A stretch of 64,000 nucleotides of DNA from a virus, in the IMG/VR virus record IMGVR_UViG_3300030450_001823, positions 1 to 64,000 of that record; one strand, 5' to 3'. Of this stretch, positions 16,227 through 57,000 are shown one piece after another (position 1 is the stretch's first letter; each line of letters opens with the position of its first letter). Below the pieces are notes generated by a model. It was not told where the DNA came from and made no database searches. It saw nothing but the letters and a program-made list of their open reading frames with translations. The translations under genes and the position numbers were made by a program.

Positions 16227-16544
16227 ATGGGAATAGAACATTATGAAAACTTTGTAGCACCGGGCACACATAGAGACGCAACTTCGTTGCTAGTTAAATT
16301 AGATGAAATAATTAGGATTCATTCGCTTCGTGAGTGGGACACCTTTGTAAAGAACGAAGAGTCGTTCCGTAAGGCAGTCGGTGACTTCATGATACAAGTA
16401 GTGAAAGAGAACTTAGATGTAGACACCGTTACTAAAGGTAGCGAGTTCAAAGGCAAGGTAGGTAATTTTCCTAAGTGGAAAGGTCAACCCGGAATCACTC
16501 ATATGATTTGGGAAATTAGACCTAGGGAATTGAAAGAAGATTAG
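16227..16544 (+). CDS. Hypothetical protein, 105 aa
   Basis: Starts directly after the previous stop with GGAGAGGAATAG as ribosome site. Mixed helix and strand, ending ITHMIWEIRPRELKED. It is the last gene of the fifth unit; its TAG overlaps the stop of the opposing minus-strand gene. Function unknown. Confidence 0.6.
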   Translation: MGIEHYENFVAPGTHRDATSLLVKLDEIIRIHSLREWDTFVKNEESFRKAVGDFMIQVVKENLDVDTVTKGSEFKGKVGNFPKWKGQPGITHMIWEIRPRELKED

Positions 16545-17329
16545 ATACCAAGCCTGTCCTTTAGCCTCTGTTGCTCCTTTGCCTCCCTCATCATCATGGT
16601 ATCAAAGGACTCCATTTGACTAGGTGTACCTTGTTCGTATACCATGTCGGACCAAGGGTCAGCGAAGTCTTCTACATCAGGTAACTTTCTACCAAACTCA
16701 GCGAGAGTTCTTGGCTCTACTTGTATTTGATTCATAGGTCTGAAAGCCTGTTGCTCTCCCATGAACATAGGGTCCATCAACTTAGCACGAGGGCTGTCGC
16801 TGACTCCTACTAAAGAAGAAGGAACACGGCCCGCCCCTGTCCCTAGCCAGTTCTCCGGCTTTATGTCCCACATTTGTGCTGCTTCGGTAAGAGGGTATGC
16901 GTCTGCGAGAGCATTTTGCAAGCCTATACCTTTTGATTTATTCCACCCTTCTTGGGTATAACCAGCAGGTCTGACTAACGGCTCTCCTAGTTCTTGGGTG
17001 GATGGTAAAGGCATACTGTCAGGTCCAAGTGAGCCGGGAGAAACCACCTGACCTGTTGGTTTCCTCATCAAATAATCAGGTATACCTGTCTCCGGGTACT
17101 GTAGATAAGCGGGCCTCTCGCCCAAGAATGTTTCAGGGTACATCTGACCCATAGTATCTAGCGTAGCCATATTACTAAGGCCGGGTCCGTAACCAAACTT
17201 AGTAGCGTCAGGGTTGCCTTCTTGCCCGTACACTGTTCTGAACATACCAGCGCCGATTTGTTGGTCAGGGTCAGTGGGTACGAACGCAGCCTTGAGAAGC
17301 AACCATGCTTGTTCAAATGCTCCGCCCAT
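16541..17329 (-). CDS. Gly/Pro-rich protein of late-gene type, 262 aa
   Basis: Only minus-strand gene in the left half. ATG 17329 (MGGAFEQAWLLLKAAF) has GGATGGGG five bases upstream on its strand; the in-frame ATG at 17353 has no such site. The N-terminus resembles that of the late-region HD protein (MTPMDKAWRILKMP) and of many small tailed-phage proteins of the form AFERAWxLLKMP. The rest is rich in Gly, Pro, Met and Gln, of low complexity and probably disordered. It may be a virion or scaffold-associated protein. It ends tail-to-tail with the plus-strand gene at 16544. Confidence 0.6.
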   Translation of the reverse strand: MGGAFEQAWLLLKAAFVPTDPDQQIGAGMFRTVYGQEGNPDATKFGYGPGLSNMATLDTMGQMYPETFLGERPAYLQYPETGIPDYLMRKPTGQVVSPGSLGPDSMPLPSTQELGEPLVRPAGYTQEGWNKSKGIGLQNALADAYPLTEAAQMWDIKPENWLGTGAGRVPSSLVGVSDSPRAKLMDPMFMGEQQAFRPMNQIQVEPRTLAEFGRKLPDVEDFADPWSDMVYEQGTPSQMESFDTMMMREAKEQQRLKDRLGI

Positions 17330-17375
17330 GTTAACCCCATCCCTTTCTGTCATTTAGTGATTGCTTGAAAAAGGC

Positions 17376-27667: not shown

Positions 27668-28035
27668 TAATCAATTTAACACCTCATGAAATAAACTTAG
27701 TTTCTCACGGCGAGAATGTAACGATACCAAAAGGAATATCAGTAGCAAGAGTGACTAATGCAAAATCGAGCGTTAAGCACATTAAGTACGATGGTCATTC
27801 AATACCAGTAGTTCAACTCACCGGCTCTAAAATCATAGTAAGAACTGGGCTTAGTGAAGAAGATTGGGATAATTTTGTTAAGTTTGAAGAAAAATTACAT
27901 GGAGATTGTCTCTTCATAGTGAGCCACATTACTAGGATGTACATGTCGACTCATACAGACAAAGTCCTCACAATCAACTCAAACTTAACCGGTCTAATAT
28001 CTCACGAAGGTGCGTACATGGAGATGAAAGAGTGA
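27664..28035 (+). CDS. Conserved phage-type NLTPH protein
   Basis: Begins MIINLTPHEINLVSHGENVT and continues IPKGISVARVT; later IPVVQLTG and CLFIVSHITRMYMSTH. The same series (NLTPHxV, IPPSGxVARV, GIPVV, YIVSxLVA, DVxxPxTG) marks a small protein family of unknown function found in many phages and bacteria. Possibly a nucleotide- or NAD-related binding protein, but no role is established. ATGA start. Confidence 0.65.
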   Translation: MIINLTPHEINLVSHGENVTIPKGISVARVTNAKSSVKHIKYDGHSIPVVQLTGSKIIVRTGLSEEDWDNFVKFEEKLHGDCLFIVSHITRMYMSTHTDKVLTINSNLTGLISHEGAYMEMKE

Positions 28036-29351
28036 TAATCGACACATACAGACCTGACCCCGAAGGTCCTGACCATATCTACAAGAGATGGCGAGACTCA
28101 GAGGGCGCTCTCATAGAAGAGCACATCTCTGACTTCAAGCCCTATTTTTGGATTAAAGAATCTACTCCACCTCGTGTTGTTAATCGCATACTAGGTCGCT
28201 ACCCCGGTTCAGAAATAGACTGGAATGATACAGCAGTAGCACTGCGTACTGATGAAAAGTTAGTCAAAGTGTATGCGTTTAGAACTAGCGACATTAGGCA
28301 GATGTGCCATGAGTTCAGAGTGACTTGGGAGGGCGACTTTAGCCTAGCAGATAGGTACCTTATAGATGAGATAGAGGAGATGCCTCAATGGAAACCAAGG
28401 GTATGGCACTTCGATTTAGAATGGGACCCCAAGACTGACGAGACTACAGTTATGGCAGTAATCGACAATTACAACAACCGTAACATAGCATTTTGCTGGC
28501 AAGATAATGACCCAAAGGGACTAGCGAATAAGTGGGAGACAACAGAGCGTGAGGTTGAATATGAAGTCAACGAAGTTCCTGTTAAGTTCACTTATGAGCG
28601 GTACGAATATGGCTCAGAGAGGGAAATGCATCAGGCTTTTATGAACTATATGGATGAATGTAATCCTGACATATTCGTGGCACATGCAATAATGTGGGCG
28701 GACCTCCCGCATCTTATCAGGCGTTTGCCTGAGTTTAGGCAACTAAGTCCTCTAAACCGTGTACTGCGACCACCTAACAAATCTGACTCAAAGGGCTATG
28801 ACTATGTGGCCCAACCGATTATAGGTAGGCTATGCTTTGACACAGCCGCCCCTATCAGAAGCGGTAGTGGATTTGAGCGCGTATGGAAAGATAGCGGTCA
28901 GCCTCAGTTGAAGAATAGAAAACTAGACACCATAGCCAAAGCCTGTAACATGGGAGGTAAGTTCGACATGGATGTATTCACTGGATGGGCCGAGCGCTTT
29001 GATGACTATGTCGACTACTGTATGCAAGATACAATTCTACTCAAACGAATAGATGAAGACAACCATGTTCTAAACTTCTTCTTATCCTTACAAAGATTAT
29101 GCGGTGTACGCTTCTCTTCATGTCACAATGTAACGAGGTTCGCTCGTGGCCTACTTAGTAGACGCACTCACTTGAAAGCCCCGACTAAGTCTAATCAGGA
29201 GAAAAGGGAGTACGAAGGTGCATTCATACCTCCGCCCTCACCGGGTCGATACGAGAGTGTAGCCTGTGTAGATTACAAGGGGCTGTACCCCTCACTAATC
29301 CTCTCGCATAACCTCTGCTGGACTACACAAGTAAAAGGTGATGCCCGATGA
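28032..29351 (+). CDS. polB-N: DNA polymerase B, N-terminal half (exonuclease and motif A)
   Basis: 439 residues from GTG 28032 (GTGA overlap). Exo I is FDLE (D128, E130), Exo II lies in VAHAIMWADLPHL (D224), Exo III is YCMQD (Y329, D333), so proofreading should be intact. Motif A is VDYKGLYPSLI (D414). The ORF stops 25 residues after that Asp, right before the fingers region. The rest of the enzyme is in the next ORF. Together they copy viral DNA with the clamp and clamp loader. Confidence 0.93.
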   Translation: MIIDTYRPDPEGPDHIYKRWRDSEGALIEEHISDFKPYFWIKESTPPRVVNRILGRYPGSEIDWNDTAVALRTDEKLVKVYAFRTSDIRQMCHEFRVTWEGDFSLADRYLIDEIEEMPQWKPRVWHFDLEWDPKTDETTVMAVIDNYNNRNIAFCWQDNDPKGLANKWETTEREVEYEVNEVPVKFTYERYEYGSEREMHQAFMNYMDECNPDIFVAHAIMWADLPHLIRRLPEFRQLSPLNRVLRPPNKSDSKGYDYVAQPIIGRLCFDTAAPIRSGSGFERVWKDSGQPQLKNRKLDTIAKACNMGGKFDMDVFTGWAERFDDYVDYCMQDTILLKRIDEDNHVLNFFLSLQRLCGVRFSSCHNVTRFARGLLSRRTHLKAPTKSNQEKREYEGAFIPPPSPGRYESVACVDYKGLYPSLILSHNLCWTTQVKGDAR

Positions 29352-30391
29352 CTATACACACACTACCTGACGGCTCTCGTTGGGACCAATCTAAGAAGGG
29401 ACTTTTGCCTCAGATTGTAGAGGAAATGTTTGAACTTCGTGATGAGTACAAGCAGAAGATGAAAGAAGCAACAGACCCTATAGAAAAGGCCGGTTGGAAT
29501 ACAATGCAACTTGCTACCAAGCGCGTCATGGCGAGTCTATATGGCTGCGTTGCGAGTCCTTATTGGGGATGGTGTGACTTTGACATAGCGAACGCTATTA
29601 CTTCTTGTGGCAGAGAGGCTATCAAGTTTCTAATGGAGGAGTCCCAAGCACAGGGTTACGAAGCCTTGTACGGTCACACTGATTCAGCATTCGTAAGCGT
29701 ACCATTTGATGAGGCACCGGCACTAGCCAAGCACTTGACTGAAAAAGCCCAAAGCACTCTGAACGCCAGTCATTTGGCTGTAGAGTTTGAAGCATACATG
29801 CCCTACTGGATTGTAGGCGGTAAGAACCTGTACTATGGTATATGCTCATGGCCTCCCGAAGACGAGGGTAAAGTCAAGAGCGCACGGTGGGGTAAAATCA
29901 GCACGCTGGCTCCCATTTCTAAAAACTTAGAGAATGATGTACTGTTGGCTATTTGTACAGGTGCAGACGAAGATACTGTGACTGATATAGTTAGACCATT
30001 AGCCAAAAGAATAGACAAGGGTACAGTCGAAATAGAAGAAGTCGCTGGCACCACTCGTATTCAAAAAGCACTCAATGCGTATGCCAAAAACGCAGGTGTG
30101 CCCGGAGTAAAGGGTGCAAGGTATTACAACGCACATATTGCTAAGAGTAGGACTGATTACTTCGGAGAGGGAGATAGTGTAAACTGGGTATATGTCACTA
30201 GTGTGCCCCAAGGCTTACCGCCCGCTGACATAGTCGCCTATAGAAACGAGGCTGATTTAGAAGGGTTTGAATTAGATTATGAAAAGATGGTCGACAAATT
30301 GGTTAAATCTAAAATGAAAAATATATTCAAAGCGATGAATTGGAACCTTGAGTTCGCATCAGGCGCTGCGAGACCTAAGAGGTATTGGTGA
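29348..30391 (+). CDS. polB-C: DNA polymerase B, C-terminal half (fingers, motifs B and C, thumb)
   Basis: 347 residues from ATG 29348. KGLLPQIVEEMFELRDEYK begins the fingers; motif B is KRVMASLYG (K58, Y65, G66; the usual Asn is Ala); motif C is YGHTDS (D112 kept, the first Asp of YxDTDS replaced by His). The start has its own Shine-Dalgarno AGGTGAT at 29336-29342 and overlaps the first half's stop (ATGA), so the two parts look made as separate, coupled chains rather than by a sequencing error. The thumb completes the polymerase. Confidence 0.9.
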   Translation: MTIHTLPDGSRWDQSKKGLLPQIVEEMFELRDEYKQKMKEATDPIEKAGWNTMQLATKRVMASLYGCVASPYWGWCDFDIANAITSCGREAIKFLMEESQAQGYEALYGHTDSAFVSVPFDEAPALAKHLTEKAQSTLNASHLAVEFEAYMPYWIVGGKNLYYGICSWPPEDEGKVKSARWGKISTLAPISKNLENDVLLAICTGADEDTVTDIVRPLAKRIDKGTVEIEEVAGTTRIQKALNAYAKNAGVPGVKGARYYNAHIAKSRTDYFGEGDSVNWVYVTSVPQGLPPADIVAYRNEADLEGFELDYEKMVDKLVKSKMKNIFKAMNWNLEFASGAARPKRYW

Positions 30392-36573: not shown

Positions 36574-38070
36574 ATGCAAGATAATGATACGAGCGCAAGT
36601 GCAGTAGTGCACAATATAAGAGCAGCGAAACGAACAGTTGACACCGTGAAAACAACCCTTGGTCCTATGGGAATGGATAAGATGATGGTTGACGGAGGTG
36701 GCAATGTCATTGTAACAAATGACGGGGCTACTATCCTACAGCAATTAGACATCGGCCACCCAGCGGCCAAGATGGTGGTAGAGGCCGCTAACACTCAAGA
36801 GAATATGTGTTATGACGGTACGACAAGTACAGTCGTATTAGCAGGGGAATTGCTAGGAAATAGCGAACTTCTGTTCAACAAGGGTCTACACGCTAATGTG
36901 ATATGCAGAGGTTATAGAAAGGCCAGTAGATGGGCTATTGAGCACCTTGAATCACTAAAAGTGAAGTCCAAGGATAACCTACTACATGTGGCGACCACTT
37001 CAATTACAGGCAAAGCGCTGGAATCTAGTATGCATCATGTAGGTGAACTGTGCGTCGACGCTGTCGAGAATGCCAAGGGTGACTACGAGCGAATCCGTGT
37101 ACTATGTCAGCCGGGAGGAGCGCTGGATGACTCTTCTTGCTTTTCAGGTGTAGTGCTACACAAGGAGTTCATGTTACCCGCAATGCCGCTCAAGCCTAAC
37201 GGCGATACTATCCTAATCAACACCGGTATGAGCGACATTAAGTCCGATGATAATGTACAGTTAAACTTAGGCTCTGCTGCCGAATATCAGCAATATAAGC
37301 GACAATCTTCAAGGGATAACTGGGTCGACAAGGCACAGCAAATCGCCTCACTTTTACCCAAAGGTGGAACTGTACTCGTTAGAGACAGTGTAAATGAGGT
37401 AATTGCTGCTACTCTTGCTAAACAAGGTATTTCTGTAGTACAGCGTATCCCTCAAAGCGACATGACTGCTCTATGTAAACTACTGGGTGCTACTATCGCA
37501 CATACCCCCGATGACTTGATTGAAGCAGTAGATGCAGACATCGAATGTACCACTATTGGTGACATGAAGTACATTGTAGTAAAGGGCGCTGGAGAGGTAA
37601 CCACGCTCATTCTAAGAGGTGCTACTAAGCAGACATTGGATGAAACCGAGCGTGGATTTGAAGACGCATTGGGAGTAGTTTGCCTCGCTTATCAGACCAA
37701 GGGAGTGGTACCCGGCGGAGGCTCTTCATATCAGAACATTGCACTTCATTTGCGCTCTCGTGCAGCAGAAGCGGGCGGTCGTGAACAGATGGCAATTGAT
37801 GCATTTGCCGACTCACTGGAGTCTATACCCGCTACTATCGCAGAGAATGCCGGTCACGATGCATTAGACACTGTATTGATGCTAAGGAATGAACATCAGC
37901 AAGGTAACTCTGATGCAGGTCCTGATATTGAGAATGGCGGCGCTTGCTCTATGTCTAAGGCGAATGTATGGGAGCCGCTGGCTCTTGTTCGTCAGGCTAT
38001 ACAATCTGCTAGTGAAGTTACAATCAGTATCCTACGAATAGATGACATAATCGGCAAGAAGAGTGAATGA
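36574..38070 (+). CDS. thsA: Thermosome subunit (group II chaperonin)
   Basis: 498 residues. [13 protein letters not shown] (from 28), VTNDGATIL (D50), YDGTTST (D81; the usual Gly before it is Tyr) and [15 protein letters not shown], then [10 protein letters not shown] and [10 protein letters not shown] at the end are thermosome landmarks. It is about 45 residues shorter than cellular subunits and lacks the Gly-Met tail. Forms double-ring folding chambers; here it may fold large virion proteins. GAGAGGGAAATAT precedes ATG 36574. Last gene of the seventh unit, ending flush against the minus-strand late genes. Confidence 0.95.
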
Positions 38071-39875: not shown

Positions 39876-41579
39876 TCAGCCTCTCCTTCTACTTGAGTAT
39901 GTTCCTTTGTTCAGCCCTATAGTTAAGTGGTTATTGTAAGATTCGGGCAAACTATCTATGGATATTTGGAATAACTCTTCATTATCCTTGACTAAATCAG
40001 GTGATTTTTTAGTAATTACGACTTGGTTAGCACTAGCAGAACTGAGTTTACCTAACAAGTTACCATTGGACCTGTAGACAAAGGCATCTGCCTTACCTGC
40101 GCTAATTATACTTGATGTGAATATATCGTCAGCATCCGTACCATCAGTTGCAAATGTAGTAGTATTAACTGCATAACCTCCTCCGTTGTTAATCAAAATA
40201 CCTGTACTTTTCAAATGCCTACCGCCGTGTATGGTAGATTTACTAGGTATACCTATTGCCATACCTTTTGTTGGATTCCTGATACTGCGCTCTTCTACTT
40301 GCCAAGACACCTTGATATTGAAACCAAACGATGTAAAGAAGTCTTCTTTGCCAAATTGTCGGTTACGCTCTTCGTTATCCTTTGTACTAGAACTGATGTC
40401 TACTTCTTGGAATCTTTGTAAAATATCCTCTAAAGAGCCATCTACTGAGTTGATATTGATTTCAGACTTAGCGTTTATCAAGTCGTGTTTAGTAGAAAGT
40501 ACTACTTGTCTTTGTGAATCGGTCAATGTGTCGTATGAAATCACATCTCCGGGCTGAACATTAGAAGCGTGAACTACTCCCATCAATTTTTCACCACCAG
40601 TCGCTCTTTTAGACATAGAAAGCACCCTACGACCGATATTTCTAGCACTTGCTTTGGTAACAGCAGTAGGTGCGTATATACCGCCCGGTATTTCATTGAC
40701 ACCATCTACTTGAGGGCCTAAGTCATCTATTTGTACCGTATTGTCATCGTTATTAGCCCTTGATTTGCCCCTTACTATGACACGATTAGGTGTGTTTTTA
40801 CTGGCATTTTTAACAGAGCCTTCTGTCACCATAGATTGGGTAACATAGTGCTCCCTGTTGTGCTTCTTTTGGTGAGAATAATGCAAGTTTCCAAACTGGT
40901 CGGTAGTAGTGTTATACCCGTCGTGTTTAGACAAGAACCTCATAGCAGTTATGCCATCTACGCCGTAGAAATCCTGTGCTACGAATGTGCCACTTGGGTT
41001 ATTTATGCTCAATCCGTTGAGCGAGTTGGTAGTACCCTTGGCAAGCCTAGCAACGAGGTCAGTTGTACGCAATCCGACATTGACTTTCTGACCTATGTGA
41101 ACCGTTTTGCTAGTAAATCCAACCTGTTTCAATTCTTTACCTTTCATATTACCAATTCGATAACGAGTACCGTCGGTGGCACTCAACACATCGTCTAACT
41201 CGGTTTGAGGTGAAACTAATGCCGAGACAACAAGTGACTGTGAAGGGTCATCTCCGCCGATTAACAAAGGAGGCAAGGTGTAACGATTGAGTGAAACTTC
41301 GTCGCTATCAAAGAATATACTACCCGTATACTTATGACCGTCGCTTACCTTATGAGTCAAACGGATAGTATCTTCTTCTTCTACAAGTGTGTACTTACGG
41401 TCATGCGTCGGTACAAAGTCCGTTGCAGTGGGTGCTTTTACAGAAAACCCACTTTGTACCTTGTTATATTCAGCATGGCGCATACCGTTATCCACAAACT
41501 TAGGCTTACGCACGCGCTTCATGACGGGTGTTTGGCTCGCATTGGAACGACCAGTGATTGTGTTCTTACCTAGTGCCAT
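39876..41579 (-). CDS. Tail hub-like protein with shared beta module, 567 aa
   Basis: ATG 41579 with GGGGAG upstream is preferred to GTG 41585. The middle (NTPNRVIVRGKSRANNDDN, then ARNIGRRVLSMSKRATGGEK, and DVISYD) resembles late-control D or gp27-type tail hub proteins, where xRVxVxGxS and Ax...G are common. The C-terminal part (39965-40206) holds the NNGxGY...DNEEL module shared with the giant protein and the gene at 59187. Confidence 0.5.
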   Translation of the reverse strand: MALGKNTITGRSNASQTPVMKRVRKPKFVDNGMRHAEYNKVQSGFSVKAPTATDFVPTHDRKYTLVEEEDTIRLTHKVSDGHKYTGSIFFDSDEVSLNRYTLPPLLIGGDDPSQSLVVSALVSPQTELDDVLSATDGTRYRIGNMKGKELKQVGFTSKTVHIGQKVNVGLRTTDLVARLAKGTTNSLNGLSINNPSGTFVAQDFYGVDGITAMRFLSKHDGYNTTTDQFGNLHYSHQKKHNREHYVTQSMVTEGSVKNASKNTPNRVIVRGKSRANNDDNTVQIDDLGPQVDGVNEIPGGIYAPTAVTKASARNIGRRVLSMSKRATGGEKLMGVVHASNVQPGDVISYDTLTDSQRQVVLSTKHDLINAKSEININSVDGSLEDILQRFQEVDISSSTKDNEERNRQFGKEDFFTSFGFNIKVSWQVEERSIRNPTKGMAIGIPSKSTIHGGRHLKSTGILINNGGGYAVNTTTFATDGTDADDIFTSSIISAGKADAFVYRSNGNLLGKLSSASANQVVITKKSPDLVKDNEELFQISIDSLPESYNNHLTIGLNKGTYSSRRRG

Positions 41580-41581
41580 AC

Positions 41582-42007
41582 TCACTCTCCCCTTAACATA
41601 CCAATGGCCTTGTTGTATCTCCGAGCGAGACTCTCATGTGGTTGCCTCTTTAGATTAGCATGTAAGTCGGCCAATTTCACTTGCCTTGCTTCGGGGTGTT
41701 CGTTGGCTCGTTGAATGAAATCAAAGTATTGTTCTCCTTCACGACGAGTCAAAGCATCAATTGCTGAGCCTACTTCGGGACCAAAGCGTTCATGGATTTC
41801 GTCTAAACTCACTCCCGTATCTTCTACCACATCATGTAAGTAAGCGATGCGCTGTAGGTACGGGTCAGTGAAACCACTGGCAACATCCTCTACATGCGTC
41901 ATGTAAGGTTGGTCTCCGTATAGTTGGTCACCGTGTGCTTGAGTAGCAAACTCGCGGGCTTCTTGGGGCATTTTCAGAATCCTCCAAGCCTTATCCATTG
42001 GTGTCAT
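41582..42007 (-). CDS. HD-domain hydrolase, MESH1/SpoT-like
   Basis: 141 residues from ATG 42007 (GGGGAG eight bases upstream; GTG 42016 overlaps the giant gene's stop). AREFATQAHGDQLYG, then YMTHVEDV (H38), YLHDVVEDTGVS (H58, D59, E62, D63) and VKLADLHANL (D114) give the HDxxED signature of (p)ppGpp hydrolases such as MESH1 and the hydrolase half of SpoT. The first 13 residues (MTPMDKAWRILKM) are an added segment also seen at the gene ending at 17329. It sits in the late unit, beside tail genes. Substrate in archaea unknown. Confidence 0.85.
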   Translation of the reverse strand: MTPMDKAWRILKMPQEAREFATQAHGDQLYGDQPYMTHVEDVASGFTDPYLQRIAYLHDVVEDTGVSLDEIHERFGPEVGSAIDALTRREGEQYFDFIQRANEHPEARQVKLADLHANLKRQPHESLARRYNKAIGMLRGE

Positions 42008-42012
42008 GCCAC

Positions 42013-45000
42013 TCACTCCCCGCTATGGTCTCCTGTATTATAAGATGCATCACCGTCACTACCCTTTGGATGCAATGTTTGACTGTACCTTGGCTGTACG
42101 CTGTAATCGCCTTCTTCATCATCAGGTGATTTACGACTTGCATCTGCTCTAAAGTGTTCAAGTGTATTTTCAGTCATAACTACTCTCGCCACAGGTGAGC
42201 GTATGTCAGCCTTGTTATATCCTGTTACATCTACACCCTGAATCTTAGGACCTTGGCTTGTAGGTACAGTTGTACTGGAAGTAGGGGTAATTGAGTAAAC
42301 AGGTGCATACGGCGGGCTACTCGGAGTACCCGTTAACGCACCCGGAGCATCACTTGTGAATAGCCCGTATTTACCTCCGGCTGTCGCTCTGTAAAAGTTA
42401 GAGCCGCCCTGTATAGTGTCATCCCCGTCAGTATCGTCAGCACTTATCACAGGCGCTGGTCTGAATAGTTGTACATGCTTGTTATCCAGCACTTGAGCAG
42501 GGCGATAAAGGAAATCAATTGTAGAATCAGTAGCATTTGTATTTTGGAGAGTAGAGTCGTGGGCGGCGTTTTGATAAGGATTAGATGATGAAGAGGCCCC
42601 TGCTTGCCCCCAGCCCTTGACATCAAGTACACCTGCGTATCTGCTCCATTCCATAGCATATGTACCGCCCAAAGGCCAATAGGCATGCGCGTTGGAAATC
42701 CTAGTTATACCTGCCTTTGGATTAGATGAAAAGTTAAGGGCAGTTAAGTCAAAGTCAGTCAAAGTTCTACTTGCACCATCCATAGCCCCTCTTACGGTAG
42801 TTCTCTGACCTATTTCCCTGTCAGTGTGTAAACTCACAGCCTCAGTTGACATAATTACATACTCTCTACTAACGCCTTCGTTCAGTTCTCCTATTGTATC
42901 TACATCAAGTCCTATTCTAACATCGTCTCTGCCAACAGGCTCGGCCAAACGAGTATCAGCAGTGATAGTTTCAGTACCTTCTGCAACAGAAGCGCTTGGC
43001 TTGAGCAACCCATCTTCGCTAGCGACATCTAATCTAGCACTGATTCCTCTTTCAATCTCACCTGACTGCAAAGCCAAGTTACTTGGCCTCACCAAACCTT
43101 GGCCGAAGGCTGGCTCTGCTGTGCTATGAGACAATACTAGTCCGGTAGCCTCATGTGTTTCGCTGACATCCATTAGCATACTTTCATTGAATACTGTAGG
43201 CCAGCGGACCCCTCTACCATCTCCTCTGTCACCTACTCTGAGAGCGCTGGCTGGGTTGAACCAATCCGCTACTCCCATGTTACTAGCGTCATTATTAGCG
43301 GTGTTAGCATTTCCACTTTGACGGTCGTTACCATCCCCTCCAAACAACGCATTAGCAGCAGGTCGGTGAGCGATATTAGTATCTGTATAAGCGTCTTCGG
43401 GGTCCCAAGCAGGGCGTATACCAAACCCTCTTACAGGGAAGCGCCTGACATCTTCTCCACGAGTATTGCCCCACCAGTCGACCATATAGTAGCGATGAGC
43501 ATTAGCCAATTCGGATATATCTTTACCGGCATTGTCACCCGGATATTCTCTTCTGACAGTAGATGCATTTCTGATAGTTCTAACAGCACAGCCAAACGGT
43601 TGAGTCATTCTGCGACCATCGCTGTACCTTACTTGGCGACCAATTTGGTCTTGGTTGAGTAATGCACTAACTTGTGTTAACCTTTCCAAGATGCCGACAT
43701 AAGAAGCGACAAAACTGACATCGCCCAAAGCAGTATCGCTACCTACATAGTCCCAGCCGTTAGTCTTGTTATCTTGCTGTATAAGCGGGCCGTGATAATA
43801 GCCTAGTAGAGCGTTAGAATTAGCGACTTCTAACCAACCTCGGACATATTGCCCCCATCGTGGTCTATTATACGCCTGTCTAACTCCGAATCTATAACCA
43901 AAGCAATGGTTACGAGCATAAGGTGAAGCCACAGTAGCCTCATTGTATGTGCGGGTTCTGATACCTGTATTGTCATCAAATGTACCACAGTCCATACCGT
44001 ATGTCTCCCCGCCCCAACCAATCAAAGAATCTCCATATGCCTCTAATCGACTGACTGCTCCTCCTCCATGAGAGCCGCCCGGCCAAAAGCCAGCGAAGTT
44101 ATATTTTTCACTAAGATAGAGTGCTTCGTTGTTTGTCAAAACCACTAATGTTCCGCCACCAAATGTGACTCCGTATGGAGCACTGCCGTCAACAGCCGTA
44201 AGTACACCGACTAAGATTCCAGCGGAATTGTATACGCTATCACCTACTTGGAACTTAGTAGTAGGGTCAACTGCGTCTACAGGAATAGCGCTAGTAGTGT
44301 TAACGCTGTAGGTATTACTGGCACCTGACGGGTGATTAATCAAAACACCACTACTTTCTGTACTACTTTCTACTCCACCTTGGTGTTTCAGATTAGTATC
44401 GAGGTCAATGACTGCGGCTGTATGAACTATGCCGTCAGCAGCGTTTGTAGGACTGGTGCCCCCTCCGGGTGGCGCTATCCAACTCATAGCGAATCCAAAT
44501 GGACCTTTGCTCGCTACATAATTGAAATCTTGATAATGAATTGTCTCAAAGTGCTCAGGTAGCATATTGTAAGGCTTCTTATCCAAAGGTGTATCTGCTG
44601 CTCCAGCCTTGGTATAGAAATTACGAGTACCACCGTCAGCAGTGTCACTATACCAAGTGAATGGTCTGCCGAGATTCGGATGCCACATGCATAAATATGC
44701 ATCAGGTACATGTAGGCTGTTTGTATCTCTACTGCCGTTAGATATTTGAGGCAAAGCCCTTGTAATTATACTAGATAACGAATTAGTGAATACTTTGTCA
44801 GAGGAATGGTTGTCATAAGGTCTAGTCAGTTTTATGATAGTGCCTGTTGCAATGTTAGCCCAAAACTCACCACTACCGCTGACAGTTGAGAATGTAACAG
44901 ATGCACCTAATGTTGCATAAGCAAGAGTACCTGTTCTGTTTCCATAAGTAGCAGTGTACCGTACACCATCTTTGGTGTATTCTAACTTTTCACCATAATA

Positions 45001-48000
45001 AGGTACTACTGGGAATAAAGAGTTATCATCGACTGTTATTGTAGAGGAGCCGTTGTTAGATATTACTACACAAGTAGGATTTAGACTTCTGTTGCGCTTA
45101 TGGACTTCGTAAATGTCTAGGAAAGAAGTTGGATAACCACCTAGGGTTAACTGTGCGCCTACGCAACCGTATGATGCTCTGCAAAGTTCGTAGTAATTAT
45201 CAGGCTTATGCCATTCTAGGTGTCTAAACTTGTCAGCACCACTTGCACCTGCTCCATCTTTGTGCAATATACCCCACCAAGGTACAGTAAGTGTATATCC
45301 GGGCGTAGCACTGCTAAACATACCCGGTCTGTAAGGTAGGCTTCTACGAGTAAGCGAAGGTGAACTAGTCTCTTGAACTCCAAGTGGGTTGTAAAGTGCC
45401 AAAGTAGGTAAATTAGTGAAATGGCTACCCGAATCAGGTTCAATGTCAAGTATAACTTCGTTTATTATTACTTCACAACCTCTGACATCTGCCATTATTG
45501 CATCTGCTAAAATCAGACTGTATGCGCCGTTTGTGTCAACATCTTGCTCAATGGCAATTACAGTATTCACTTGCTGCCCTGTTAATTCTACAACTTTAGT
45601 GCCGCTTTCAGAAGGTGCTTTGTTCTCAGTACTATGGTTTAAGTGGAAACCTTTGATTTGCTGAGCAAATACATTCGGCTGTATCACAATCTGATAGGCC
45701 CCGACCTCCATAGGGTCAGGGAAATGGTTGTTGAGAGTATAAGTCCCACCTGCTTCTAATACAAGTTCGTGCCCACCTGCTGCGTTAGTAGTACCAGCAG
45801 CACCTAGAGACGCAGCAACTCCGTAACCTTCGTATTTGATTTTAGTCTCAGTCAATAGAGTGAATGCCCCGCCGTGTATATCAGATGGTGAGAATGCAGC
45901 GGTTGGACCGGAGAAGTAAATGTAAGGGTCACGGCCCGATTCATGAGTGGTGGATGTAGCAGTTGTACTGGTTCTAGTACCTTCGTTGGTACCAATGAGG
46001 CTGTCAATCAAAGGTGCATTGTTAGAAGTTCTACAACTTTGGTTTAACTCGTACAAGCGTTGGTAGGCCGGGTGAGCATAATGTCCGGGCATGAGTGCCA
46101 TTGTCGGGCTAATGTAATGGTGACCCATACGAGGTATAGGCATAGGTGTCATCTTAGGAGTCATTATGTGATTATAAGGTATAGAAGGATTAGTAGTCGC
46201 ACCTGTATTCGCAGGTAAAGCAGCATATAGCGCGTACCAATCAATTATCTTCATATCAGGACTAGCACCGCTGTACTCACTATGGTCCCTTAGTCGTCTT
46301 GCGCCAAAGAACCTAGTGCTACCCGCTGGCATATAGTAAGAAGGTACTATTTTCAGCAATGTACCCTCTGATATTTCCTTTTCTACAAATGTAGTAAAGT
46401 CAGGGCTATACACGACGCCTGTAAACTTACCACTACCTATACCTGTATAAGAAACCAATACTCCTTCGTTAGTGGTATCATTGTACACTCTTAGGAAATA
46501 TCTACCACCGCTTAATTCACTACTGTCAGTCCACACACCTGTTTCAGGTGTAGCACTTACTGTTATTTCTGTACCACTATGACTTTGGTAATTTAACAAC
46601 TGCGATGTCTCACGGTTAGTCATAGATACACCCATACGGGTGACATGGAAATACAAGTTTCTATCATGAGGCTCGTATGCTGTCTTAAGAGGAGAATTAC
46701 TAGTATGGTCTTGCCACCCTTCTACAGTTGAAGCCGGGAACTTCAAGCGATTATCGCTCTTGGCCAAAGATACATCTACTCCGTCTTGACTTAAATGCTC
46801 CCAGCCGTTATTTTCCCAAGTAGGCCATAGTCTAGGACCTGAATACTTGTTATCGAACATGTCAGTAATATGCTGCACAGGCTGTGACGGGTGCTGTAGA
46901 CCTCCTGAGCCTATAGTTTCACTTTGATACGCTTGTATACGGTCGAATCCGGGCCTAACGATAATGTTACCCGGTATTTCATCAGGGTTAGGTAATCTGA
47001 TTTTCATATTAGGTGAAACACCTGTACCAGCAAGTGCAGGTGCCAGCCCCTCTATTTCCCTGTCACTTACATGTCTGAAATCCATGATAACGGTACCTAG
47101 AGGAGAGCCACCCTCAAGTCGGTGCTCTTGACCAGTATCGTCTATCACCATCATGCTTTGGAATTGCTTTTCCTCATTTGGTAACATTAGTGCGTTGCGG
47201 ATTTCCATAGGGTGCTGCTCTGCTAATTGAGGGTGGGATAGTTCTTGGGCCTGTATGATTGGAAACATCGCTGCGTTAGTTGATTCAAAACTAAACCTAA
47301 CATTACCAAGTACTTTTTCACCTTCAAGTAAGTATTGCCCAGTAGAGGCTTTTCTCCTAACCCAAGGTATAGCACCGAGTCCTCTTGCATTAGCGGCTGG
47401 CATAGTTAGACTACCGCCATCCATTCGTTTCCAAACCACATGTTCTGCTGAGAAATTACGAGCAGCAGAGCGAGTATTGTAATAGCCGAATAATCCATTA
47501 TGCGGCATAGCAGTGCTCGACGCACCGGGGTTCAAGTAATCATCACTACCACTTACCCCTATACATTCTTTGCCATAAGTACCAAAGTCTTCATGGAAAT
47601 TAGAGCCTTTAACAACGCTCTCATCCCAAAATAAATCACCAGTAGGATTTAGACAGGCGTTGGCTTGTACCATTTTGCCCGACGCTATTGTATCGTGCCA
47701 CTTATTGGCTGCTACGGCTGCGCTAGTGGCGGGATAATCCCCTGCAACAGTTGGTCTCACAAAGTCCGAATGCACTTGTGCTTCTACACGAGGACCACCA
47801 GTTGCAGGGCCTAAGTAACGAGATTTGTTGTGAACTTTAGAAGTGTCCCATTGTATTGTACCTGCATTGATAATGTTACTAGTCTCCTTCGTCATCAACC
47901 AGTCACCTGCACAAGTTACTCCGTCTCTGTCAGCCTTAGCGATAAGAGGCAATTCACTTTCGTGAGTAATCGCAATCAAGTGTCGAGAAGACAAGCCGTT

Positions 48001-51000
48001 TACGCAATAATCTGAAAATGTAGCAGTAGCAGTATCACCTGTTCCGACTGGAGATGATGCCGCTAAACAAGTTTCAGCAGCACCGTATGGATTGAAACCA
48101 AGGGATGGGTGCCAAGCACCTAATCCAGCAGGGTAAACACCTGAGCCGACTTGTGTACCTGTATAGGAGTTCATGTAAGAGTAGGCTTCTCCAGCCCAGC
48201 CTACTGCTCCTACAGGCTTGGTACGGTCTATTGCATCAATTAACCCATTGTAGTGAACTTGGGTAATATGGTCTCTTGTTGTAACCGTGTTATCATTATT
48301 CAATCGGTGTGTACCGGATTTAGCCCAAACATACGCCTTGAAATCACTGGTGGCGGTAACTTCTCTATCATTGGTAGGATTGATGAAAGAAGTACTTTTT
48401 GCACAGTCTACTAGAAGTATTCTTGCAGCACCGTCACCACCTGCCGGTATCACCAACTCTCCGGGCTGATAACCTGAACCGGCGGTAGCAATACTAATTC
48501 CAGTTATTTCACCGGAGCCTCCGACTGTGAGAGCCAGCGTTAGCCCAGTACCACTACCGCCGCTTGTAGAAACAGTTGCTGCACTATAACCTGCACCGGG
48601 CACTGCGACAGCAGCCACTGACGGTACGGTTGAGTTAACACTTTTTCCTAAAAAGATTGAGCCAGTATTCCCATTAAACCCGGCAATCGTAAGGTTTGCG
48701 ACATCTTCTGTAATCGTAGTATTGCCTGAAATACCAGCAACTGCGTTGGTTAAAGTAAAAATACTCGTACTTGTTTCAGTTACTGTAATTTTACCAGCAT
48801 GCCCGTTAGCGTGCTCTATTGCAGCCTTGATTTGCTCCAAATACTGATGCTGAGTAGCACTTGAAAAGTTGATACCAACCGCTATGCCTCCTGTTAGACT
48901 ATCTCCGGCTGTACCTGCACCTGTGTCTGAATTAGAAACTAATACTGTTCCAGTAGCAACCCCTCCAGCGTTAGTATCTGTCAATACATATACTCTTACC
49001 GTGCCATCTGCTGCGGTAATAGTCACCTTTTGTTTCTCAGTCATACCGTGTGCGCTACCTTGAGCCGCAACCGTAAGTGTAGCAGTAGTAGTTATGTCAG
49101 TATAAGGTGCATATCCAGCGGTATTGCCGTCACTAATGCGAATCCAACCATATTTAGGTAAAGTTTCAAGGGATGCATTGTTAGTGACAACCAGTTTATT
49201 CGCTGGCTCAAAAGAAGCAATATCCAACTGTACCCAGCCGTACCTATCTTGTTTGTGAGCATTCTGCATTGAAGGCAAAAAGGTACCACCTATTGCCTTG
49301 AGTGGGTCTTTACCGGGGAATGTGTTGATAGACGCACTGATGACTGCTCCTAATTCTTCTGCGTTTTGTACACGAGTAGCGTCTATCAATACTACATTGT
49401 CATCATTCGCTTGATTATCAGGTGAACCTCCATACTGAGTTAAATATGCTTTAGCCAAAAGTCCACAAGGTCTGAAAGCAGATACATTATGCTTATTGGT
49501 ACCACCTGTAGCAAGTCTACCACCTTCTACAGCGTGTTTAGGATTTATGTTAACATGGTTATCAAGGAAATGTCCGCCGGGATGATAGCCTCCATCCATG
49601 TGCCAAATTACAGAAGACTTCTTTGTAGCAGGGTGACTACTTGATTCAAGAGCGTTACCACTTGAGTCAGTAAATATATGACTAAATGGATGAGCGCTTG
49701 GTGGTAACGCTACTCCAAATGTAAAGGGAGAGCCTTCGTAATAAAATGCCCTATCGTAAGTTTGTGCAAATGTAGTACTACCACTTACAGCAACGCTTGG
49801 GAATCCTTTAGTAGGCTCCCAGTTCATATCGTAATTAAAGGCTGAAAGTTTATTGATTTGGAAAAATGTAGTTCTAGGTAAATGTCCGATAACGGCACCA
49901 CTAGCATGGTTTATCAAACCGGCAACGGTGCTATCTCCATTAGTCAATGAGTTAGGTAAAAATGTTTCAAGACTGACAGTGCTACCATCAGTATAAATTG
50001 GCACTGCACTGTAACCATTACCGCTCGTAACTATATTGGCACCCTGTGGCTCAAAAGCAGCAGAATTGTGCGGGAATGCTTGGCCGGGACCAAATACCAT
50101 GTAGATAGTTTGGTCAGCAGTATTACCCGTAGCACTATATCTAGCGTGAGGGTGAGCAAATCTAAGTACAATTGGACTAGGTAAATTAGCGTGGACTGCG
50201 TTGCTACCATCTGTATAAGTAAGTCCAGTGAACTTAGTATTAGCACCCTTCGCCATGTCAAATGGTAATAGGCTATCTTGATTAAACAAAGGAGGATTAT
50301 TTTTACCTTTATGGTCGTCTAAGTAAGGTGTACCGGGAAACATAGCCAGCATAGCGTTAGTATCGAGTAACGCGTAGGAGCCAGCGATTTCTCCTACATT
50401 TTGAAGACCAGCAGAACCTGTAGGGCCACCTGCGTATGGGTGCGTGTAAAAATCACCATAGTCGTTTTGAGTACCGTCGTTAATATCCATAACAACGCCA
50501 CTGAAACCACCACCGAAGTAAAGTGGTACCCAATGGTCGGGACTATCTCTACCTCCTCTAAAGTAGAGGAACGGACTAGACATTTTGCTACCAGCCCTAC
50601 GAATACCATCTGTTTTCATGCCATTCTTGACATCACCGTTTCGCATAAGAACTTCATCGTCGCTGTCGTGACAGAAAGAAGCAAAGTTGGCACTAACACC
50701 TGTACCTGCCCCGTAAGTAAGTTTAGTTTCAACTGCTGCTCCGGGCGTACTAGCAACCTCTGCGTATTCTTCTGAACCCCACCAAATTGTAAATCGCTCG
50801 CCCCAAGCCTGTGCATGGTCTGAACCCGGTACACATATCGAATACAAGTAAGTGCTACTTGCGGTTGTTATTAGAGTACCACTATCAGTGGTTTTCAAAA
50901 TCATAGGGCTGTCTACCTTTGGTATAATGTGGTCGCCCGCTACACTTGTGTAATTGTCACCACGAAGGTTCCTCTGCCATGTAGATATGTCAACAGGGTT

Positions 51001-54000
51001 ATTCTGATTATCAACTAGAATAGGAGTAGCGGTGTTAGCATTAGTACCCTTGTAACGGGTAGTAATGTGCAACACTGTTTCAGGAATATAACCTACATCT
51101 AACCTTGTACCTGCGTCTCTTTCAACATCGCTTAACCCACCAGTGTGTTTAGAAGATACAACGGCGTCACTACTTGCACCTTCGACCAACCCCCAATCTT
51201 TGTTCCTTGATACTTGGAATAATTTACTTAGAGGCGTTTTGCTCTTACTACTGGCTTTAACTCGTATTGCAGTAGGGCTAACTCCCCATTCTCCCAATGT
51301 TTTACCATCAGGTGCAAACATACCTGTGCAATCAAAACTAGTCGCTGCTATACTATCGTCTGTCGGGTCAGGCATAGCCATCGCAAACTCAACTGCTGCT
51401 GCAATCACTTCGTCAGTGAGTACGCTTGTGAAGTTGATTCTTGGGCTAATTAGCATACCTTCGTTAGTAGTTAGTGCACGACCACCTGTGCAGCCATAGA
51501 AGTAATGCTTGTTAGATGCACCAGTGTCACCGTCGTGGTCGTAATGAGAACGACTGGTATAATGAATAGTAATCCCTTGGTCACCACTAGTACCTGCATC
51601 ATCTGTCAATTGTAATACTCCCGACTCAGGGAATCCGAGATAACCTAGTACATCAGGGTGGGTTAGCGTGTCTCCTGTACTGTAAGGTGCAGTGAAAGTT
51701 ACATCCATAGTTACTCCGGTATCAGTAGCCTTGTTACCAGTCACATGTATTCCTACAGCAGGTGAAGGGTAATTGTTCCAAAGATTACCTTTGTATGGCT
51801 TAGCAGTACCTCCACTCTTTTCACCGCAGACTTCTCCTGTACCTACCATGTGCTTACCAATTGTGAATCCACCTTGTGCTACATCTCTATCGTCAAAGTG
51901 AATAACAATCTCTTCGTCAATCGTAGGAGGTACTATTGTCAAATCATTTGCAAAAGACTTACCATACTGCTTGTATATCATCCTAACAGTATGATTATCA
52001 CCTCGATGGTCTACTAAACGAATACCATAAATGTTACCGTCACCTATATTACGGGGCTTCATATCATCTTTAGGAATATAACCAACTTTGTTATCGGTAT
52101 CGTATATTGTACTATTTAGCATAGCAGTAGCGGCGTTAGAAGCGTTACCGTATACTGATTGGTAACGAGAGTCTTCTCCGTCTCTGCCCATCCCCCATTT
52201 ACCAGCATCAGGAGACCAGCCGGGTATACCTGCTTGAGTCATACCGCCGAAGTTAATACGAGACTTAGCAGAAGTACCTGTTCTCAACCCATCGACAAGT
52301 GTAGATGATGGACTCTTGGTTTCAAACGATTCATCTATAACTGTATTACTATTCCTACCCGAAGCGTTTTCTCTAAAGGTATCAGCAGACTGTGTTGAAC
52401 CAATCACTATTTCAGGACCTATACTCAGATTATTACTAAAAGAAGCAAGAGTCTCTTCGGGAGGTAAGTATTCTTTCAAAGTTGTAATTGGTGCGAACGG
52501 TCTACCGAATCTATTGATAGGCATAGGTGCAGGGTGCATGTTTTCACCAGTCATTTCATCAGGTTGGCACCAATAATTACGGAATCTACCACCGTGCCCA
52601 ATGAGGTACTGAGGGCGATAAGGTGTTTGAGCACGGCTGTTATCTAACCAAGTACAGAAGTTTCTACCTTCTGCGCCCGGTATTGTAGAATGTATAACGA
52701 TAGAGTAACCCTTGTTACCGTCAGAATCAAGGACTACTCTACCAAGATGAGCACGGACATACCCCATATGCGTACCTCTGTCGTGACTTGAGAATCCTCT
52801 TTTAATGTCCCAAAACGGAGCCGGGTCGTGTGTAGAACCGGTTGCTGCAAAGTCAGCGTTGATGTGAGCAGCACTTGGGTCAAAGCCCATACTGAATCCG
52901 CCAGCCTTTACGCCGGGTGAAGATAAATCAAACTTTTCACTTTCGCCTAAATACTGGTCAGCAGGTCTTCTAGCGTGAGTACGACCATTCTTTGCACCCG
53001 CTTGGTTAACTAAGCGAACAACTTCTCTTGCCGCTGCTTCTATGTCTGTTACACCGTCTCTAAGTGCTACCTCTCCAAAGTCTACTGTTAACCGGCGCAC
53101 GAAGTCCATCTGAGTCCAATGGTCTAGTTCATTCAATCTTGCCTCTTCATGCCCACTTAAGTCAGCAGTACTGCTTCTAATCCCTTTCAGTGCAAGGAAT
53201 GCTGGTATCGCTCTTGTACCATCGGGAGTATCAAAGAATGTCGAGGCTTCTCTTGAGTCTTTGTCAATCTGCTTATGCTTTAGAACAGCGTCGTCAGAAT
53301 TGATAACAGCATCATTAGTCCTTGGCATAGCGCCATTTGTTGCATACTTTGTACCTACATCGGGTGCATGTGGTGAAAGTATAGTACCTGTACTAGCATT
53401 CCATGTACTCTTATGAGAATAAGCAGCCTCCATAAAATCGGAGCCATTAGTTGCTGCTAGATATTTACTTTCGCTTGGGAAACCGGCGGCTACATCTATC
53501 CAAGAACCTGAATTGTCATCATCGTGCACAATTGCACCGGCAGTGTGGGCTGGTGCAGCCCCTATCTTGGTGGCATCAGCGCTACTCTGTACCTGCATCC
53601 ATAGGTCTTGGAAAGCGATAAACTCACGGTCATGGGCCACATCATAAAGTAATACACGAGCGTGCTCTTCTGTAGATTGATAAGGGTCTAGGTAAGCGAC
53701 AGTCGGTGCAGGTGTATTAGATGTAAATGTCAAAGTTTGACTAGACTTAGAGCCGCCAGTGGTAGCCTCAGATAACTCAAAGTGAGTAGCGTCGGTTACT
53801 GTAGCCACAGTAGCGCCGTCAGGTATACCACTACCACTTACTCCCATACCTACCACAATTGCAGTAGAAGAAGTGTGAGTAATTGTCGGGTCGTTATTAT
53901 ACGAAGCGCCACCTACTGTGAACTCGGCGTATAATCCAAGTGCTTCGTAATTTAACTCAATCGTTTTGTTAACATGTTGAACAAAGTTCTGAGCCGTTTC

Positions 54001-57000
54001 TGTACAACTATTGCCTATCAAGAAGTTCTCCATAGGTATACTGTTCCTTGGATTAGCAGCAAACGCTCCCTCCCCTCCATTAAACCCAGTCCATACTTCG
54101 CCTTCGTTGAGTGTGCCTCTGCTCTTAGCAAACAGTCCCTCAATCGCATGAGGGTTGGTGTAATGCATGTTCATCCAAACGGTGTCACCGTCACGCAATC
54201 CACCCGGAGCATACGGATAAGCCCAAGATTTGTTTAAGAATACACCTTCTTTGACTTCGGGATATATCGTAGTAGGACTTGCATGCATATCTACTAGTGT
54301 AACTTCGTCACCGGATGCTGGTTGAAAAGCGTCATCTCGCTGAGTCAAAGTTAGCAAATTGTCAGATTTTATATCATAATGAGCATGAGTTATAACTCCG
54401 TTTGAAGTAATTGTCAAAGTCTTACTACTCAAAGAGCCGCCGGTTGTAGCGACCGATAAATCAAAAGTAGTATTACTGATAACTGCTTCAACTGTTGCTC
54501 CAACAGGTATACCATCTCCACTCACAGCCATACCGACTGCGACCAAGGTAGACGACGAATGTGTTATGAGTTTAGCATTGTTATAGGAACAACCAGTCAA
54601 ACTAAAGTCACTTGGTGCCCAAGCAAGACGGTAGCGATAATTGCTATAGCCATCTACTCCGGCTATGTTATCAGGAAATAAACTGGCATCTTTCATATAC
54701 AAAAGGGTCGGAGCACCACTAGCCCAAGCCTGTACTACCCCTTTGGCTCTACCGCTTTGTATTCTATCGAGATGAGGGTTAACACGAGGCCCTGCTCTAA
54801 ACTCTACTGCACTAACATATTGCCTCATACCATAGTCTACATTACCACCTTGTGTCATTACATTGGAGCGGTCATAGTAGAAAGAGCGCCTACCTTCATA
54901 TCCAGCACTCTTAAGCAGAGGGTTGTCAGCAATAGGAGTGTAATTCATATCTTGGTAGCCCGGAGCCGGAGTAAGTTGTGCACCAACTGCAAACTCCTTG
55001 ACGAAGTTCTTACTCATTGCCCAGTTGCCACCAGCAGTAGACGCAGAGGCCGCTGTAATTGTGTTAGCACTTGTGTCTCTAGCAGTGTAGAGCACCCATT
55101 CTCCGCTCGGCAAGAATGCCCTACGATACCTTGCACTGCCGTCAACACCAGCAACGGTGACAGGGGCAGCATCAGGTATAGGGAATATACTAGCATCTTC
55201 TACAGAGATTGTAGTACCAGTAAAAGGCTTGGTAATCTTAGTTCCTGACCTGTGACTGTCACTAGATATACTGTAGGAAAATGCACCAAAGATTTCAGGG
55301 TCTTGTGTTGCAATTTCGTCATGTCTTCTACCTACTGGGTTTGGTGCCCAGTTACTTGCAGTATGTGTAGCGTCGACATGTATTTTCATACTGTTATCAG
55401 GGCCGGGGAATATACCCTTGTCAGGGTTGTCAAAGAAGAACTCTTCAAACAAAGGTATCTCTACTAAAGCACGAGTACTGGCGTACTGTGTACCCAATTG
55501 GTAATCGTGCTGTACGCTGTCTAATGTTTGGAATAGTCTATCATTGACAGTAGTACCGTCGTTACACATGGATTCCTCAAGGAACTTATCATCAACATGT
55601 AATTTATGACCTGTGCTTATTCCAGTAGCACTGGCCCAAGCAGCAAAGCCTACTGCTTCACTACCGTCGGCCAATACAAACTTACCTGAACCTAAGTGAG
55701 TAGTGCCTGATGCAAAGTTAAACAAAACCCCTGTCTTTGAAGAATACTCTGCCGAAGCAAATCTAATCGGCTCGTTTACATCAGTCCTTGGTAATTCAAG
55801 ATATATTCTACCGACTTTAGGGAAACAGTATGTACCCCAAGATTGTAAATCAGTAGAGCGGTTGTTAAGAGGTAAAGTCGTTACAGTGCGACTACTTGTG
55901 TCGACTGCGCTTACTTCGGTAACACAATCACGCCTTGTATTCCAAGCAAGGCGAGCGGTAGGGCTAGGCTCCCAAGTCTCTTTCGTGTTGATTGCACCTT
56001 GACCCGGACCACCTAGCATCATTGTTACGACAGGTGCACCGGGCATTATTTCCTTAACAATGTGAGAATCAGGAGCGCCGTCACCTTTTGCACTGACACT
56101 AGCACCCGCTATATCGGATATAATACCATAAGCGAGTAGGTTTGAGTTACCGTTATCATCTTCATTGAATGAAAGTACACGGCCCCTTGACATCAAGTAT
56201 TCTACTGACAAATGGTTAGATGAATCTTCATCTATCTTTAGTCTAGCCAGTTGTGTAAATCTTCTACGGTCGCTTGGTTGAACAGTTAAAGTTACTATAT
56301 CTCCACTCATCTGATGCTCAATGATGTCAAATATCTCATGAACAGAAGTAGATTGGTTAGTAGTACCTGTACCTATGTTAATAGACTGGTTGTAGAGTTC
56401 TTCATTGTCTACCAAAGACGCAGTAATTCCAGCAGACACTCCGATGGCTGTTTCTGCAACAGAAGTAATTGTACCTAATACGGTCCCATCAATCTTATAC
56501 AAACTCTGACCTGTTGAGAACTTAGTACGAGCGTCTACTGCATCAACGGTGATACTGGTAGCAGTTGCTGAATAACCACTGCCATTATTTACCAACACAC
56601 CAGTTCTTTGCCGGTCATACTGAGAACTTTGTCTAATTATATCTGCTGTCTCTTCTAAAGTGTCTTCATAAGTAGCGGTTTTAATTATTATTTTACTAAA
56701 CTGTGAACTCTTAGTAGATAAGTTAGAATCAGATACCGCTATACCTTGAGGTGTAGTTTGCGGTGGGTCAGTAGATGCCAAAGGTAAGTAATTATCAGGG
56801 CACAGCGTTGTGTCTAAAGTTGTCTCTGCAACAGTGCCTTCTTCTGTATCTCCTTCTAAGTCTCCGCTTTTGAAAGGAAACATACCGGGTGCTTTGAACT
56901 CTACTATACCACCGGGAGAAAGTATATCCAAGTCTGCACTAGCCATATCAGTGTGTATCAAATCAAGTATAGATGTACTACCAGTCACTATTGTACTGAC

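Follow-up and report, generated by a model that had tools for sequence, protein, structure and literature searches.

The internal proteins of bacteriophage T4 are a diverse set acting on host defences and sharing only a capsid targeting sequence (PMC3012670), and in phage P1 the N-terminal residues of DarB direct this anti-restriction protein into the head (PMC9024508). A literature search returned no description of a capsid targeting sequence for archaeal viruses, nor of the motif reported below in magroviruses; an earlier mention is possible. The window analyzed here comprises the first 64,000 nt of a 97,235-base virus record, the remainder of which was read as stretches L084 and L085. Its gene layout matches the ICTV description of the Magrovirales (PMC12999244): an HK97-type major capsid protein (MCP) near those of the Druskaviridae haloviruses, opposed head and replication modules, and a length of ~97 kb, within the range of 90–110 kb. 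The nearest relatives of the MCP are those of the haloviruses HVTV-1, HCTV-1, and HCTV-5. The hosts of magroviruses, the Poseidoniales, are very abundant marine archaea.

Within this virus, a small hydrolase gene begins with a 12-residue tag that recurs on many unrelated proteins. Like the T4 capsid targeting sequence, the tag is a short N-terminal segment on diverse bearers; it differs in belonging to viruses of an archaeal host, in occurring also at C-termini and between modules, and in having no clear cleavage site. In P1, the signal described sits on a single, very large protein, DarB, whereas magroviruses use a common helix on many small ones. The likeness to T4 drawn here concerns this arrangement. 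We hypothesize, with a probability of about 0.6, that the tag is a docking helix that would load proteins into the particle for delivery, and that the hydrolase would be cargo acting on entry.

The HD hydrolase and its relatives

The HD hydrolase gene occupies 41582..42007 on the minus strand (ATG at 42007, TGA ending at 41582, 141 aa). A GGGGAG ribosome site lies upstream of the ATG, and the plus strand of the same interval is interrupted by stops. The gene adjoins a giant 5723-aa gene of the structural block (42013..59184, minus strand) and overlaps the start of a 569-aa gene (39876..41585, minus strand) that has no Pfam or PHROG match. A model's earlier sequence-only reading had called the latter gene hub-like and had described the hydrolase gene as coupled to both neighbours.

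The predicted protein matches only HD families in Pfam (HD_4, 29.9 bits, cut-off 27.2), PHROG 990 'metal-dependent phosphohydrolase' (E 2.9e-35), and structures of SpoT/RelA, MESH1, and (p)ppApp hydrolases, the best PDB chain being 7smg (phmmer, E 4.8e-12). Across 25 aligned relatives, H25, H38, H58-D59, E62-D63, K111, and D114 are invariant and N118 is nearly so. The metal-binding H...HD...D and the catalytic ED pair are thus all present, as the sequence-only reading had stated, and loss of HDxxED in relatives was looked for and not found. Because the metal and catalytic residues do not vary in these 25 relatives, the reality of the gene is far beyond chance. The AlphaFold2 model (pLDDT 94.8) was most similar in Foldseek to 7smg (TM 0.82), with MESH1, P. 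aeruginosa SAH, and SpoT next in order. Model, structure search, and Pfam agree on an all-helical HD fold without a synthetase domain. Given the invariant active-site residues and the fold matches, we predict an active hydrolase, very probably of the small alarmone hydrolase/(p)ppApp-hydrolase group, in agreement with the MESH1/SpoT-type assignment made from the letters. The best match in both sequence and fold, the (p)ppApp hydrolase of Bacteroides caccae (7smg), has the same HD/ED and K-L-x-D motifs but lacks the N-terminal tag. MESH1, the small alarmone hydrolases, and PHROG 990 likewise combine the HD fold and HDxxED in a single domain without synthetase; compared with MESH1, the viral enzyme is ~40 aa shorter and carries the tag in addition. 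The enzyme itself is a new member of an already known type.

A partner viral alarmone synthetase for this enzyme was considered and rejected, the RelA_SpoT domain being found in 0 of 22 magroviruses. A RelA/SpoT synthetase domain occurred in only 7 of 293 sampled Thermoplasmatota genomes, a count in which the Poseidoniales share is not set apart. The product of a sporadically occurring host defence synthetase, or another 3'-phosphorylated nucleotide, would fit better as substrate than routine (p)ppGpp.

Homologues of the HD protein are present in 420 phage records. In the two bacterial phages examined they are untagged and lie among early-type genes, in one case next to DNA and RNA ligase genes. 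This distribution would suit an ordinary late-expressed enzyme of nucleotide metabolism on which the tag is incidental, but every magrovirus HD copy is tagged, whether in the position seen here, in another gene cluster, or even within a fusion (locus L010) in which the HD protein follows another tagged protein and retains its own tag. We consider an incidental tag improbable. Outside the lineage, HD homologues begin at the HD domain itself, which marks the tag as a separable add-on, and none of 46 HD-bearing viral records from outside the lineage matches the tag.

An exchangeable slot beside the giant gene

The giant gene and the 569-aa gene flank an exchangeable slot. The sister virus G029, 97–99% identical in nucleotide sequence to the window virus over most of the genome, has no gene there, and its junction reads ...GCGGGGAGTGAGTATGGCACTAGG. 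The HD gene of the window virus occupies exactly this junction, with GGGGAG(AG)TGAGT at both ends: the left boundary, GGGGAGTGAGT (42011..42021, minus strand), is the end of the giant gene and a direct repeat of the right boundary, GGGGAGAGTGAGT (41580..41592, minus strand), where the HD gene ends and the next gene starts. In relatives, the slot holds HD by itself, HD with a tagged ADP-ribosyltransferase (ART)-like gene, a tagged gene with HD, or other tagged genes, one or two in number. The tags of two slot genes are degenerate, and in two relatives besides G029 the slot has no gene. The sequence-only reading had placed the hydrolase among tail genes. This stands for the window virus insofar as the gene lies in the structural (late) block; it does not describe a fixed place, since the gene is absent from the ~98% identical G029 and located in a different tagged cluster in G005 and G006.

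The near-identical flanks and the precise indel relative to G029 raise another explanation, in which the shared segment is a recombination and translation cassette: a ribosome site with its start region, repeated so that genes can be shuffled, and without a role in the protein. Codon sharing among tags within a locus (0.58, against 0.39 predicted from body usage) is compatible with such a cassette, and this excess suggests that some copies are recent duplicates. The tag codons nevertheless vary at synonymous positions whereas the residues W, A, K, and D/E are conserved, and tag copies also occur at C-termini and between modules, remote from start codons. A cassette without a protein role is therefore very improbable in our judgement.

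A short helix on unrelated proteins

The tag of the HD protein, MTPMDKAWRILK (41972..42007, minus strand), is short and amphipathic and stands at the start of a predicted helix spanning residues 3–25; as it extends into the HD domain's first helix, part of its role could lie in folding. A query of the HD protein's first 27 residues gave a second match near the end of the same virus, and a motif scan turned up more copies in unrelated ORFs, both here and in related viruses. The consensus is M-[TNS]-[AP]-[FM]-[DE]-x-A-W-x-[LVI]-[LV]-K, where the W is imposed by the search expression; little is conserved downstream. A degenerate nucleotide pattern encoding M-x-[PA]-[FMIL]-[DE]-x-A-W-x-h-h-K matches at least 118 viral-contig stretches, and many of these hold multiple tagged ORFs (as many as 11 per locus among the matches listed). 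The ORFs of seven near-complete genomes contain 62 matches, compared with 0.9 in residue shuffles. All 18 near-complete magroviruses carry 3–16 copies per genome, counts biased upward by the discovery of most of these genomes through the tag, and a reversed control pattern gave 0. The window virus genome, chosen independently of the tag, has five to six. The suggestion of the sequence-only reading, that the N-terminus resembles short segments of phage proteins and might act in targeting, is thus borne out as to recurrence, and a targeting role fits.

Clustering of the 291 non-redundant tagged ORFs by body sequence gives 141 unrelated clusters, of which 99 are singletons. Pfam identified Nudix (4e-22), Dam methylase (3e-17), GP88, DUF6321, HD, helix-turn-helix, and zinc-ribbon proteins, with a weak GNAT signal. 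A large tagged family with a YHGT motif models as ART-like: its top Foldseek matches listed are consistently of the ART fold, and with a model pLDDT of 79 and a best Foldseek E of 8.6e-3 the assignment is kept at ART-like. Many tagged proteins are short, disordered-looking, or zinc ribbons, and not all are effector-like.

Tag copies also lie at C-termini (at the extreme C-terminus of, among others, a 147-aa gene that lies close to the window virus's capsid gene) and between modules of polyprotein-like ORFs. Two or three copies were found in 16 non-redundant ORFs with one regular expression. Multi-module ORFs place a helix copy before each module, often as [GS]-E-P-M-[DEN]-x-A-[WFM]-x-L-L-K. 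A head maturation protease is encoded; [GS]-E-P precedes many internal copies, and no conserved protease site was found after N-terminal ones. The idea of an RNA or DNA start element was discarded, as C-terminal and internal copies exist. An 839-aa ORF of G029 (L239:4968-7484, plus strand) has five tag helices separating ParB-like, GNAT-like, and DUF5872-like modules, assigned by eye except for a weak GNAT match, and looks like a cargo polyprotein.

On sequence grounds, the tagged proteins all belong to a single lineage, that of the magroviruses of the Poseidoniales. The MCP of the window virus is present in 36 of 45 tagged records (mostly 62–98% identity); 28 of the 45 have the chaperonin, and only two short fragments lack both. 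This lineage marker, a thermosome-type gene at 36574..38070 (plus strand), encodes a group II chaperonin (Cpn60_TCP1, 437 bits) that occurs across tagged magroviruses. The tag was not found within the structural half of the halovirus relative HVTV-1, and a general cellular motif was rejected, because the 34 matches in 257 Gb of cellular genomes are PurH-internal or noise.

In seven genomes, 57 of 58 terminally tagged ORFs share the strand of MCP, TerL, and portal, opposite to polB, helicase, and chaperonin; by strand, tagged genes thus belong to the head/packaging block. The second tagged gene in the window (MGGAFEQAWLLLK; 16541..17353, minus strand), seen in the motif scan and the strand survey, is a lone minus-strand gene within the plus-strand replication block. 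Also in the window, the family B DNA polymerase is split into two overlapping plus-strand ORFs, the first (28032-29351) with the exonuclease and the start of the polymerase domain and the second (29348-30391) with the remainder.

Strand also bears on where the tag might dock. Instead of the particle, its partner could be the viral chaperonin, a virus factory, or a host protein, with the tagged proteins acting late in the producing cell. The tag-carrying records are indeed a chaperonin-encoding lineage, an amphipathic helix could serve as a client signal, and the tagged set is known here from genes and not from virions. The chaperonin gene, however, is on the replication strand and the tagged genes are on the head strand, and the cargo (ART-like, Nudix, methylase, HD) is similar to protein types that phages inject. 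T4 also packages Alt, an ADP-ribosyltransferase. Docking outside the particle is, in our view, unlikely.

Proposed delivery with the genome, and further genes of the record

A virion cargo signal fits a helix that sits on unrelated proteins, at either end, in one lineage, in the head block, and on defence-type enzymes. The magrovirus tag shows several features of a T4/P1-type capsid targeting system: many unrelated bearers (the 141 clusters and 3–16 copies per genome), a head strand (57/58), and a separable add-on. Packaging, injection, a receptor for the tag, and the kind of substrate are inferred. As we picture it, the HD hydrolase is fused to a docking helix that also marks otherwise unrelated late magrovirus proteins and that would bring them into the head during assembly, or attach them elsewhere on the particle. 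Tagged proteins would then reach the host together with the viral genome, in the manner of T4 internal proteins and P1 DarB, and the HD enzyme could act immediately. It would remove a 3'-(pyro)phosphorylated nucleotide or RNA end that a host stress or defence enzyme had produced, and our leading guess for this target is a toxSAS-like product.

Packaging would account for a 'late' gene with an early function, because its product would be carried over to the next infection. The sequence-only reading had offered packaging or action at the end of infection. Delivery at the next infection is the part we favour; end-of-infection action is a possible answer to the early/late paradox, but a less economical one. 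We would give about even odds to the broader proposal that magroviruses carry the first known archaeal virion-cargo system, in which a single docking helix, usable at either terminus or between the modules of a cargo polyprotein, would load a rapidly changing enzyme repertoire (HD nucleotide hydrolase, ADP-ribosyltransferase-like, Nudix, methylase, ParB-like, and GNAT-like) for delivery with the genome. If so, the puzzle of an alarmone-type hydrolase among late genes would be solved, and any magrovirus ORF with the helix would be predicted cargo, so that a large dark part of these genomes could be read as a list of effectors that are probably injected. It would also become possible to test directly by what means viruses of uncultured marine archaea disarm or take over their hosts, and the tag would suggest a compact, portable protein-loading signal.

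Three further minus-strand genes in the part of the record read as L085 merit mention. A 435-aa ORF between TerL and portal (L085:2697-4004, genome 82697-84004) contains a LAGLIDADG-like segment, AAGFLDADGYI, recognized by eye, and is perhaps a homing endonuclease or an intein remnant. Near TerL, a 535-aa disordered-looking protein (L085:8685-10292, genome 88685-90292) has three internal tag-like repeats, TGEP[MI][DE][ND]AWSSL[MI]K. A tagged copy of phrog_6437, a small basic protein common in cyanophages and Flavobacterium phages, lies at L085:16508-16774 (genome 96508-96774).
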